This document shows positions 1 through 7,404 of a stretch of 19,327 nt of DNA, piece after piece. The notes below the pieces were generated by a model. It had not been told where the DNA came from, did not search any database, and saw only the letters and a list, made by a program, of their open reading frames with translations. Position 1 is the stretch's first letter. The number at the start of each line of letters is the position of its first letter. Origin of the DNA: DASVDK01 sp036381125 [NCBI: Thermodesulfobacteriota bacterium] (GTDB lineage Bacteria > DASVDK01); NCBI GenBank assembly GCA_036381125.1, contig DASVDK010000169.1, forward strand, positions 1-19,327, in the 5' to 3' direction. The translations under genes were made by a program, and so were the position numbers.

Positions 1-1016
1 AAGGGGCCGAGCCGCTCGCGGACGAGCGGCACGTGGAAGTGGATGCGCCACTCTCGCGGCTCGCGATCCCCCTCGGCCGCGGCCAGCGCCTCCGGCAGGT
101 CGAGGTAGCGGACGAGCCGGTCGCCGCGCCGCTCGACGACCTGGTGGAGGTAGACGCCGTCGGCGAAGGGCCGGAGCGCCTCGATCGCCGCGCGGTCGTC
201 GCCGCCGAGGCTCGCCTCGAGCCCGGCGCTGACCTGGACCTTCCCGATGCGGATCGCCGCCGCGGCGAGGGCGCCGAGCGCTTCGGCGGGCGGCTCGAAC
301 TCGACCGCCATGTGACAGGCGTCGAAGCAGACCGTGAGGTGGCGGCGCAGCGCCGTCTCGGCCTCGCCGCCCGCGAGCCCCGTGAGCGCCTCGAACCTGG
401 CGCGTGCCGCCTTCGAGAAGAGCCGGCCCTCGAAGAAGGCGACCGTGTCGGCGACGGTCTCCATGACGCAGCAGGGCTCGGGCTCCAGGGCGAGCGCGAT
501 GGTCCGGCCGGTGCGCTCGCGGAGTCGGTGGAGGCCGGCCGCATGGCGGAGCATCCCGTCGGCCATCCGGCCGAGGTCCGCCGACGGCCGTCGGAACCCC
601 CCGGGGACCGTGCTCACGGTGCCCTCGACGCCGTCGGGCAGCAGCCCGGCGAGGAGCAACGCGAGACGGTCGGTGTACGCCACCCGGGCGTCGTCGGCCC
701 AGTCCGGCAGGTAGACCCCCTCCTTCACGCGCGTGCCGTGGAAGGCGCCGTAGGGGAAGCCGTTGATCGTGAAGACGTAGAGACCGTGCGCGTCGAGCCA
801 GGTCCGGAGGCGGTCGACCGCACCGGGCGCGGCGAGCGTCTCGGCCGCGCGGGCGGACAGGCGAAGCCCGACGCCGAAGGGGCGGTCGGGCGCCACGCGT
901 CCCTTCACGGCGACGACGTGGCGTTCGAGGTTCGCCCGGACCTCGTCCCAGGACTCGCCGGCATGGATGTTGGTGCAGTACGTGAGGTGGGGACGACCCG
1001 GGGCGTCGAGCCTCAC
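1..1016 (-). CDS. eboE: EboE-like metabolite traffic protein (TIM-barrel sugar-phosphate isomerase/epimerase fold), 3' end cut by window edge
   Basis: The minus-strand frame is open from a GTG at 1016 to base 1, giving about 338 residues without a stop; the C-terminus lies outside the window. I read near the N-terminus HLTYCTNIHAGESWDEV, then FGVGLRLSARAAETLA, LYVFTINGFPYGAFHGTRVK and GVYLPDWADDARVAYTDRLA, all hallmarks of EboE. Further on come ALEPEPCCVMET and CFDACHMAVEFE, whose Glu, Asp and His are plausible metal ligands of a xylose-isomerase-like TIM barrel. The GTG overlaps the TGA of eboD (GTGA), so translation is probably coupled to eboD. EboE belongs to the conserved ebo cluster that in cyanobacteria is needed to bring a scytonemin precursor to the periplasm; its exact reaction is unknown. 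The family assignment is firm, while the substrate cannot be inferred. Confidence 0.92.
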   Translation of the reverse strand, partial: MRLDAPGRPHLTYCTNIHAGESWDEVRANLERHVVAVKGRVAPDRPFGVGLRLSARAAETLAAPGAVDRLRTWLDAHGLYVFTINGFPYGAFHGTRVKEGVYLPDWADDARVAYTDRLALLLAGLLPDGVEGTVSTVPGGFRRPSADLGRMADGMLRHAAGLHRLRERTGRTIALALEPEPCCVMETVADTVAFFEGRLFSKAARARFEALTGLAGGEAETALRRHLTVCFDACHMAVEFEPPAEALGALAAAAIRIGKVQVSAGLEASLGGDDRAAIEALRPFADGVYLHQVVERRGDRLVRYLDLPEALAAAEGDREPREWRIHFHVPLVRERLGP

Positions 1017-5974: not shown

Positions 5975-7404
5975 ACCGCGTCGTCGTCCTGAACGTCGTC
6001 GGTCTCACGCCCGACCTGATCGGCGAGGCGACGCCGAACCTCGCGGCGCTCGCGCGCGCCGGGGCGATGCGGCCGATCGCCGCCGTCACCCCGGCCGTCA
6101 CCTGTCCCGTCCAGTCCACGTACCTGACCGGCCTTGCGCCGCGGGAGCACGGCATCGTGGGCAACGGCTGGTACTTCCGCGACCTCTCGGAGGTCTGGTT
6201 CTGGCGGCAGTCGAACAGGCTCGTCGCCGGCGAGAAGCTCTGGGAGGCGGCGAAGCGGCGCGATCCGGCCTTCACCTGCGCCGTCCTCTTCTGGTGGTAC
6301 AACATGTACTCGACCGCGGACGTGACCGTCACGCCGCGGCCGATGTACCCGGCCGACGGGCGCAAGATTCCGGACATCTACACGCAGCCGGCCGGCCTCC
6401 GGTCGGAGCTCACGGCGAAGCTCGGGACCTTCCCGCTCTTCGACTTCTGGGGCCCCGCGGCCGGCATCGCCTCGAGCCGGTGGATCGCGGCCTCGGCGCG
6501 CCACGTCTACGACACGCGGCGCCCGACGCTCACGCTGGTCTACCTGCCGCACCTCGACTACGACCTGCAGCGGCTCGGGCCGCGCGCCCCCGGGATCCGC
6601 AAGGCGCTCGGGGAGATCGACGCGGTGTGCGGCGAGCTGATCGAGCACGTGCAGCGCGACGGCGCACGCGTGGTGGTGCTGTCGGAGTACGGCATCACCG
6701 AGGTCGAAGGCCCCGTGCACGTCAACCGGGTGCTCCGCGAGGCCGGGCTCGTCGCGGTGCGCGAGGAGCTGGGGCGCGAGCTGCTCGACCCCGGGGCCAG
6801 CGAGGCGTTCGCCGTGGCCGATCACCAGGTGGCCCACGTGTACGTGCGGCGACCCGAGCGGGTGCGCGAGGTCGCGCGGCTGCTCGAGGGGGTCGCGGGC
6901 GTCGAGGCGGTGCTCGACGAGGCGGGCAAGCGCGCATGCGGCCTCGACCATCCGCGCGCCGGCGACCTCGTCGTCCTCTCCCGCGCCGACCGGTGGTTCA
7001 CCTATTACTACTGGCTCGACGACGCCCGGGCGCCCGACTTCGCCCGCACGGTGGACATCCACCGCAAGCCGGGTTACGATCCGGTCGAGCTGTTCCTCGA
7101 CCCGGCGCTCAGGGCGCCGAAGGTCAAGATCGCGCTGACCCTCCTCAAGAAGCAGCTCGGCTTTCGCTATCTCATGGACGTGGTCCCGCTCGACGCCGGC
7201 CTGGTGCGCGGCTCGCACGGGCGGGTCACCGATCGTGCCGAGGCCGGTCCGCTCTTCCTCGCGAGCGAGCCGACCGAGCCGGCGGCGGCCGGGCCCCTGT
7301 CGGCGGCCGCCGTGAAGACCCGCCTGCTCGAGGCGGTCTTCGGGCGGTGGCCCGAGGCGGATGCGTCGGCTACAATACCGAGTTCCGTGGGCGCGCCTGC
7401 GTGA
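5971..7404 (+). CDS. eboF: EboF-like alkaline phosphatase/nucleotide pyrophosphatase superfamily protein
   Basis: The 477-residue protein starts at GTG 5971, overlapping the eboB TGA; the frame is open further upstream, but only this start gives the family N-terminus NRVVVLNVVGLTPDLIGEAT. The nucleophile motif PAVTCPVQSTYLTGL (Thr44) and PREHGIVGNGWYF match the phosphodiesterase/nucleotide pyrophosphatase fold, and a late IHRKPGYDP supplies His364. Two classical metal-binding motifs are altered: the DxxGH equivalent reads DYDLQ (196-200), with Gln where His is expected, and SDHGM reads SEYGI. Similar forms may be normal for Ebo-linked members, but this suggests metal binding or chemistry unlike ordinary phosphodiesterases. 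There is no signal peptide. Hydrolysis of a phosphoester or phosphonate-type bond on the Ebo substrate is inference. Confidence 0.85.
   Translation: MNRVVVLNVVGLTPDLIGEATPNLAALARAGAMRPIAAVTPAVTCPVQSTYLTGLAPREHGIVGNGWYFRDLSEVWFWRQSNRLVAGEKLWEAAKRRDPAFTCAVLFWWYNMYSTADVTVTPRPMYPADGRKIPDIYTQPAGLRSELTAKLGTFPLFDFWGPAAGIASSRWIAASARHVYDTRRPTLTLVYLPHLDYDLQRLGPRAPGIRKALGEIDAVCGELIEHVQRDGARVVVLSEYGITEVEGPVHVNRVLREAGLVAVREELGRELLDPGASEAFAVADHQVAHVYVRRPERVREVARLLEGVAGVEAVLDEAGKRACGLDHPRAGDLVVLSRADRWFTYYYWLDDARAPDFARTVDIHRKPGYDPVELFLDPALRAPKVKIALTLLKKQLGFRYLMDVVPLDAGLVRGSHGRVTDRAEAGPLFLASEPTEPAAAGPLSAAAVKTRLLEAVFGRWPEADASATIPSSVGAPA
7348..7376 (+). promoter_or_regulatory. Weak promoter candidate for ferredoxin inside the eboF 3' end
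   Basis: TACAAT at 7371-7376 is a good -10 in very GC-rich coding sequence, with TGGCCC (three of six consensus bases) 17 bases upstream at 7348-7353. It would give the ferredoxin gene its own transcript in addition to read-through from the ebo unit. Confidence 0.3.

Follow-up and report, generated by a model that had tools for sequence, protein, structure and literature searches.

The ebo locus at positions 1–7404 of contig DASVDK010000169.1 (assembly GCA_036381125.1, from the Thermodesulfobacteriota bacterium DASVDK01 sp036381125; the whole stretch analyzed, of 19,327 nt, is called here the window) represents an ebo variant equipped with a putative redox module of its own. This module comprises adjoining genes for a GSDH-domain protein and a monohaem cytochrome c, both predicted to be exported, which lie between eboD and eboA. 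The coupling of the GSDH/cytochrome pair to ebo is well supported, and we favor, with moderate confidence, the reading that the pair forms a periplasmic redox module of its own that oxidizes the molecule delivered by the Ebo proteins; the mechanism as a whole (Ebo delivery, oxidation by the GSDH protein and electron transfer by the cytochrome) is plausible but unproven.

EboE was used to scan named genomes, which gave 365 relatives, and the best 80 loci were fetched (L and G numbers below label loci and genomes, respectively); only 50 of these 80 loci reach 15 kb, so some GSDH/cytochrome pairs may be out of sight. Ten of the 80 loci (L012, L014, L018, L019, L020, L026, L034, L049, L052, and L058), all from records of metagenome-assembled genomes (MAGs), contain a close homolog of the window GSDH with an adjoining cytochrome gene. 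A first-pass annotation of the window had proposed counting GSDH-domain and CxxCH proteins beside ebo in other genomes, and the survey of ebo neighborhoods confirms that the pair recurs near ebo in related genomes. The subfamily of the window protein, designated GSDH-E and with a border set by score, is present in 16 of 41 ebo genomes drawn from the 80 loci and searched whole, at no more than 1.4 kb from an ebo gene in 13 of the 16; in G032, the gene is on a 3.8-kb contig that is too short to show proximity to ebo.

The association was also evident in genomes sampled by class, although the hypergeometric values given here ignore shared ancestry. Among 385 evenly drawn Alphaproteobacteria, EboE was found in 11 genomes and GSDH-E in 10, all of them within the 11 (6e-19; 2e-17 if the centre genome, chosen for having both EboE and GSDH-E, is left out). 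All ten GSDH-E genes lie at most 1.3 kb from an ebo gene, and a cytochrome is present in eight (not in G329 and G422); in G368, EboE is 67 kb away from GSDH-E, yet EboA and EboB adjoin it. The eleventh alphaproteobacterium with EboE, G419, has all six ebo genes together and no GSDH match in the 17 kb seen. As a threshold control, a search of the same 385 genomes at E 1e-50 gave the 10 GSDH-E proteins at 559–825 bits and then nine weaker relatives at 175–332 bits, seven of which are in genomes without EboE, one is 342 kb from EboE (G266) and one is on a different contig (G451). Likewise, among 239 Gammaproteobacteria, EboE was found in 10 and GSDH-E in two, both among the 10 (p 0.0016; 0.04 with the centre genome left aside), such that 12 of 12 GSDH-E genomes from the two class samples have EboE. 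In 95 genomes from the phylum to which the Rokubacteria genome G001 belongs, there was an EboE match in seven (six over the cut-off) and GSDH-E in two, G100 and G099, of this same phylum: in G100, GSDH-E is 2.5 kb from EboC/A/B/F and EboE was not found there, and in G099 it is split between the ends of two contigs, with EboC at 0.7 kb from one of the pieces. Altogether, a cytochrome accompanies GSDH-E in 24 of 26 compared loci (23 plus G099, whose cytochrome contains a CxxxCH motif).

GSDH-E comes with ebo in the sampled genomes, and ebo often comes without GSDH-E. The latter is among the observations that weigh against the favored reading: GSDH-E is missing from 25 of the 41 ebo genomes searched whole, from eight of the 10 gammaproteobacterial EboE genomes and from five of the seven EboE genomes in the phylum of G001, with G099 as the exception. 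On the same side, GSDH-E and the EboE locus are on separate contigs in G020 and G023, the GSDH-E genes of G329 and G422 have no cytochrome, PqqE was found in only six of 28 GSDH-E genomes, many of them drafts, and the solved structure closest to the window GSDH is HHIP, an animal protein that is not known to be an enzyme.

The window GSDH protein matches PF07995 well over the cut-off (137 vs. 25 bits) and scores 72.2 bits with TIGR03606 (glucose/sorbosone PQQ dehydrogenase, PQQ being pyrroloquinoline quinone), below its cut-off of 434.55. A first structure model (predicted local distance difference test, pLDDT, 63.5) was set aside for a second one, built with a 32-sequence alignment, with a pLDDT of 92.0. 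HHIP is the nearest solved protein to this model in fold (Z 43.2, 346 residues, 2.4 Å, 35% identity) and also in sequence; it is followed by aldose sugar dehydrogenases, with Z about 39, and by soluble glucose dehydrogenase, with Z 36.3. The PQQ sugar dehydrogenases 1C9U, 2ISM, 3A9G, and 2G8S have the same fold (Z 35–39) and the same His and Arg-Asn positions; His169 and the pair Arg251-Asn252 align with 2ISM and 3A9G, whereas HHIP lacks the Arg-Asn pair. We take His169 to be the catalytic base and Arg251-Asn252 to be contacts for PQQ. All 32 aligned GSDH proteins carry His169 and Arg251, and at least 90% of them have Asn252. The modeled fold and these residues are consistent with a sugar dehydrogenase. 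The hosts of the window-type GSDH differ from those expected for PQQ sugar dehydrogenases in that most have no detected PqqE, which was found in eight of the 23 ebo genomes that lack GSDH-E; nothing indicates that the pair is accompanied by PQQ synthesis, although the absence of PqqE is weak evidence because many assemblies are drafts. We therefore did not accept PQQ as the established cofactor, and the term quinoprotein-type given to the dehydrogenase in the first-pass annotation holds in terms of homology, and not as an assignment of cofactor.

The likeness to HHIP could alternatively mean that GSDH-E is a non-enzymatic binding or scaffold propeller that receives the Ebo-delivered molecule, with the cytochrome serving another reaction. 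The scarcity of PqqE and the two loci containing GSDH-E without a cytochrome agree with this possibility, but it accounts poorly for the invariance of His169 and Arg251, for the lack of the Arg-Asn pair in HHIP itself and for the near constant company of a cytochrome, and we consider it unlikely.

The window cytochrome contains a single CxxCH motif (CTFCH) and scores 55.9 bits with PF13442 (cut-off 27), as corresponds to a class I monohaem cytochrome. A Met-Pro downstream of the haem motif is invariant in the cytochrome alignment, and this Met is likely the axial ligand. The cytochromes located beside GSDH-E in G100 (L126:7916-8332, + strand) and G099 (L157:10847-11248, − strand) contain CAGRCH, which is a CxxxCH and not a CxxCH motif.

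The closest functional precedent comes from Nostoc punctiforme (statements on cited papers refer here and below to excerpts of them). In ebo mutants, the scytonemin monomer remains cytoplasmic, whereas in a scyE mutant it reaches the periplasm, and the authors propose delivery by Ebo, involving a prenylated sugar carrier, and oxidation by ScyE (PMC6282210); delivery of a small molecule to the periplasm by Ebo is known only for Nostoc according to the same excerpts, which also take L-sorbosone dehydrogenase as a periplasmic marker. As in the window, ebo in Nostoc is beside, or co-regulated with, exported proteins, and the proposed order is the same, with delivery preceding periplasmic oxidation; conversely, a dedicated cytochrome c is not described in the excerpts of PMC6282210, and the window, inspected by eye, has no scytonemin genes. 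A homology between ScyE and GSDH-E was considered and is not supported by sequence profiles (hhalign probability 6.8%, 15 columns).

Other exported proteins of propeller type were found close to ebo. A second predicted exported protein, propeller-like, roughly 560 residues long and with its own CxxCH cytochrome c, occurs at 1.8 kb or less from ebo in Bradyrhizobium (L011, L015, and L016) and in G084 and G085, two genomes from the phylum of G001; in G451 and G266, the protein is found 2.7–4.3 kb away from ebo. The evidence for a propeller fold in this family is weak, namely a Pfam SGL match (E 0.022) and short repeat matches to designed propellers. A relative of the family, 0.3 kb from EboC in G691, scores 25.9 bits with PF07995 (cut-off 25); in profile comparisons, this relative reached 99.5% with the second family and 61.7% with GSDH-E, and GSDH-E reached 11.6% with the second family. 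Additionally, 10 cyanobacterial loci contain near ebo proteins that we take to be of the ScyD/ScyE type. GSDH genes are also found beside ebo in Sorangium (L029 and L038; Sorangium G024 has three GSDH matches), in two Algoriphagus loci, as part of a ThuA-GSDH-PKD-cytochrome c fusion, and in a single locus from Rhodothermaceae, whose GSDH protein has a pair of CxxCH motifs and a cytochrome domain just under the cut-off. Since GSDH genes are common in genomes like those of Sorangium and Bacteroidota, the Sorangium cases and the Bacteroidota fusions (L053, L055, and L056) weigh little. The large exported Bacteroidota proteins that combine GSDH with cytochrome c or CxxCH motifs are located at L053:12648-16136, L056:12675-16145 and L055:3851-7408.

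The association of GSDH-E with ebo, the fold and residues of a sugar dehydrogenase, the precedent of ScyE and the second propeller/cytochrome pair lead us to favor the pair as an oxidation step for the Ebo product. The cytoplasmic and membrane Ebo proteins would make a carrier, with sugar-cyclitol chemistry contributed by EboD and EboE and prenylation by EboC, and would bring a small molecule through the inner membrane. Once in the periplasm, this molecule, or its sugar or cyclitol head group, would be oxidized by the exported GSDH-E, with the dedicated monohaem cytochrome c handing the electrons to the respiratory chain. We infer the export of both proteins, the substrate and cofactor of GSDH-E, the electron flow from it to the cytochrome and the sequence of the steps. 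The coupled pathway of Ebo proteins, dehydrogenase and cytochrome advanced in the first-pass annotation thus stood as to its conserved genomic pairing, whereas for the oxidation of an Ebo-delivered molecule we lean on the precedent of ScyE.

Two types of membrane protein genes found in other ebo loci agree with the participation of a lipid carrier. In L019, L034, L103, and L107, a gene for a protein with a VTT/DedA domain separates eboB from the genes of the GSDH/cytochrome pair, and a function as flippases of lipid carriers is described for DedA proteins (PMC10127716, PMC12893004); in turn, a gene for a TMEM220-type protein is beside eboD in seven of the 80 loci (L010, L019, L020, L022, L026, L027, and L034; PF15071, with Pfam run on L026 only), and GSDH-E is present in seven of these seven genomes. 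Neither type of gene was found in the window.

Retention of the PQQ-type fold, His169 and Arg251-Asn252 in genomes that mostly show no PqqE could also be explained if the Ebo product were an exported redox cofactor, or a lipid-bound cofactor, that GSDH-E uses in place of PQQ, and not its substrate. Ebo would then build and export a new redox cofactor or cofactor-carrying lipid, loading exported propeller dehydrogenases in organisms that lack PQQ synthesis, and its clients would include GSDH-E and the Bradyrhizobium-type protein, each with its cytochrome, and ScyE in cyanobacteria. The adjacency of several different propeller-like proteins to ebo is in keeping with this, and the authors of PMC6282210 call cofactor synthesis conceivable, before preferring transport. 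However, a role restricted to cofactor supply leaves unexplained why the Nostoc monomer is cytoplasmic in ebo mutants and periplasmic in the scyE mutant, six of the 28 GSDH-E genomes do have PqqE, and exogenous PQQ is possible; we find this explanation quite doubtful.

Gene order and strand around the pair differ among loci, whereas the proximity to ebo persists. Moreover, G494, G329, and G422 cluster together in the trees of EboB, EboD, EboE, and EboF, and GSDH adjoins EboE in the three of them, yet the GSDH from G494 groups with that from G416 and has a cytochrome, whereas those from G329 and G422 are distant and have none. Approximately unbiased (AU) tests, in which the groups were defined once the trees had been inspected and long branches are involved, rejected a single clade for the GSDH of G494, G329, and G422 (p 0.004) and the grouping of EboF from G494 with that from G416 (p 4e-8), and it looks as if GSDH had been replaced in place in G329 and G422 with respect to G494. 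In the case of the window, GSDH groups with that from G222 (support 95) and EboB, EboD, EboE, and EboF group with G099 and/or G100; the grouping of the window with G222 was rejected for EboD (AU p 0.006) and not for EboF (p 0.055). We do not claim a swap of the window GSDH with respect to the relatives from the Rokubacteria phylum, since window, G099, and G100 together were not rejected (AU p 0.19).

Relatives of GSDH-E also exist away from ebo. Two homologs at 405 bits in plasmid records, from Gemmatirosa (49.5%) and Pontibacter (43.3%), show no ebo match within 12 kb. GSDH paralogs of 515–519 bits occur in G032, G036, and G037, with no ebo match in the 4.3-kb stretches L095 and L096 (the G032 copy is outside of these), and the G100 copy, at 526 bits, is near ebo. 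In both L095 and L096, the paralog is followed by a TMEM220-like gene. These relatives, the many ebo loci without the pair and the movement of ebo genes between phyla (PMC5133447) would suit an independent sugar-oxidation module hitch-hiking with ebo in horizontal transfer, but the presence of EboE in every GSDH-E genome of the two class samples, the persistence of proximity under changing order and strand, and the apparent in-place replacement, not expected of a passenger, make this improbable.

The first-pass annotation described five ebo genes in two divergent arms and a cytochrome gene 13 bases upstream of eboA, which gene models, domain models and synteny confirm (Table 1). It also highlighted the split layout; we rejected this as the main point, and as a special feature, because ebo order and strand vary among the fetched loci and in PMC5133447.

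Table 1. Coordinates of the features in the window and of selected genes in other ebo loci.
Feature	Coordinates	Strand	Basis
eboE (TIM barrel), truncated by the left edge of the window	1-1016	-	NF035939, 387.6 bits (cut-off 250)
eboD (sugar phosphate cyclase/3-dehydroquinate synthase type)	1013-2260	-	NF004852, 538 bits (cut-off 333); PF01761; PF24621; synteny
Intergenic region between the divergent arms, with a single promoter-like site at 2309-2337 (+)	2261-2491		Consensus match only
GSDH, predicted exported six-bladed propeller (GSDH-E)	2492-3787	+	PF07995, 137 bits; model pLDDT 92.0
Cytochrome c, predicted exported, monohaem, CTFCH	3934-4296	+	PF13442, 55.9 bits; alignment
eboA	4310-5044	+	NF035938, 164.7 bits (cut-off 50)
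eboB (TatD-like hydrolase)	5051-5974	+	PF01026, 55.8 bits; synteny
eboF (type I phosphodiesterase/pyrophosphatase fold family)	5971-7404	+	PF01663, 226 bits; synteny
Second propeller-like family	L011:13013-14899, L015:9473-11155, L016:13013-14899, L158:1394-3076, L160:8544-9128
VTT/DedA genes	L019:1746-2453, L034:4460-5131, L103:11273-11962, L107:7177-7962		PF09335

The window EboE scores above the cut-off of its family model, EboA scores above that of the domain model and below that of the subfamily model NF035937 (148 vs. 320 bits), and NF004852, matched by EboD, is named 3-dehydroquinate synthase. No Ebo-specific model matched EboB, EboD or EboF in a family-model scan of the window proteins; they are named Ebo because they are homologous to, and clustered with EboA/EboE in, other ebo loci, with TatD, 3-dehydroquinate synthase-type and phosphodiesterase proteins beside EboA/EboE both here and in relatives. 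The closest among the compared ebo genes are those of G100 for EboB (73%) and EboF (74%), and those of G099 for EboE (69%) and EboD (65%); by this measure, the window would probably derive from the phylum of G001. The GSDH gene starts with ATG, preceded by GGAGG, and the cytochrome gene with the GTG at 3934, the ATG at 3949 being a possible alternative; both products begin with Sec-type signal peptides, as judged by eye. GSDH and the cytochrome gene are separated by 146 nt, eboA and eboB by 6 nt, and the last 4 nt of eboB are shared with eboF; no terminator-like sites were seen in 2200-7700. We did not find eboC in the window, where the locus runs off the left end. This gene is present in 73 of the 80 fetched loci and immediately follows eboE in 48 of them, as it also does in the relative G099 (L157; PF01040, UbiA prenyltransferase); given this usual position and the truncation of eboE at the window edge, eboC may sit immediately to the left of base 1.

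An FdxA-type ferredoxin gene (7432-7674, + strand; NF045480, 119.2 bits, cut-off 125) starts 27 nt past eboF; its product has no match in the examined stretches of G099 and G100 and is only weakly similar to the ferredoxin of three betaproteobacterial loci. Farther downstream, two cobalamin riboswitches (RF00174; 13665-13966, + strand, 52.4 bits, and 16941-17110, + strand, 73.5 bits) precede, respectively, a set of periplasmic-binding-protein, FecCD and ATP-binding cassette (ABC) genes (13990-16752) and a TonB-dependent receptor gene (17162-19063), and 13665-19063 is a predicted vitamin B12 uptake region. Among the fetched records, the closest named EboE match (L001:4772-6289, + strand; 69%, a Rokubacteria MAG) has no other ebo match in 16 kb, and its genome is without GSDH-E. 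L049 and L043, in records titled Rickettsia typhi and Bordetella parapertussis, have ebo/GSDH close to those of the betaproteobacterial MAGs L052 and L058, and the titles look wrong.

The six-gene ebo operon from eustigmatophytes and bacteria shares with the window the core of eboA, B, D, E, and F, as well as a variable order and strand and the insertion of non-ebo genes (PMC5133447). The inserts named in the excerpts of that paper are a glycosyltransferase, tyrA and dsbA, with no mention of GSDH or a cytochrome there and no occurrence of the word cytochrome in its main text; uncharacterized inserts were left unanalyzed. According to PMC6282210, the EDB cluster of Pseudomonas fluorescens NZI7 contains a complete ebo cluster along with further exported proteins; its products are indoles (PMC9655573). 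In agreement with the first-pass annotation, which knew of no such report, we found no description of a GSDH/cytochrome partner of ebo in our searches of open-licence literature, a scope that does not include the original EDB papers.

The ebo genes are widespread, and a partner oxidoreductase with its cytochrome, found together with ebo in almost all the cases examined here, gives a handle on what ebo makes and moves. Both partners are predicted to be soluble periplasmic proteins, so their substrate, cofactor and electron acceptor are directly assayable. If the favored reading is true, the single case of scytonemin, in which delivery is followed by periplasmic oxidation, would become a more general rule.

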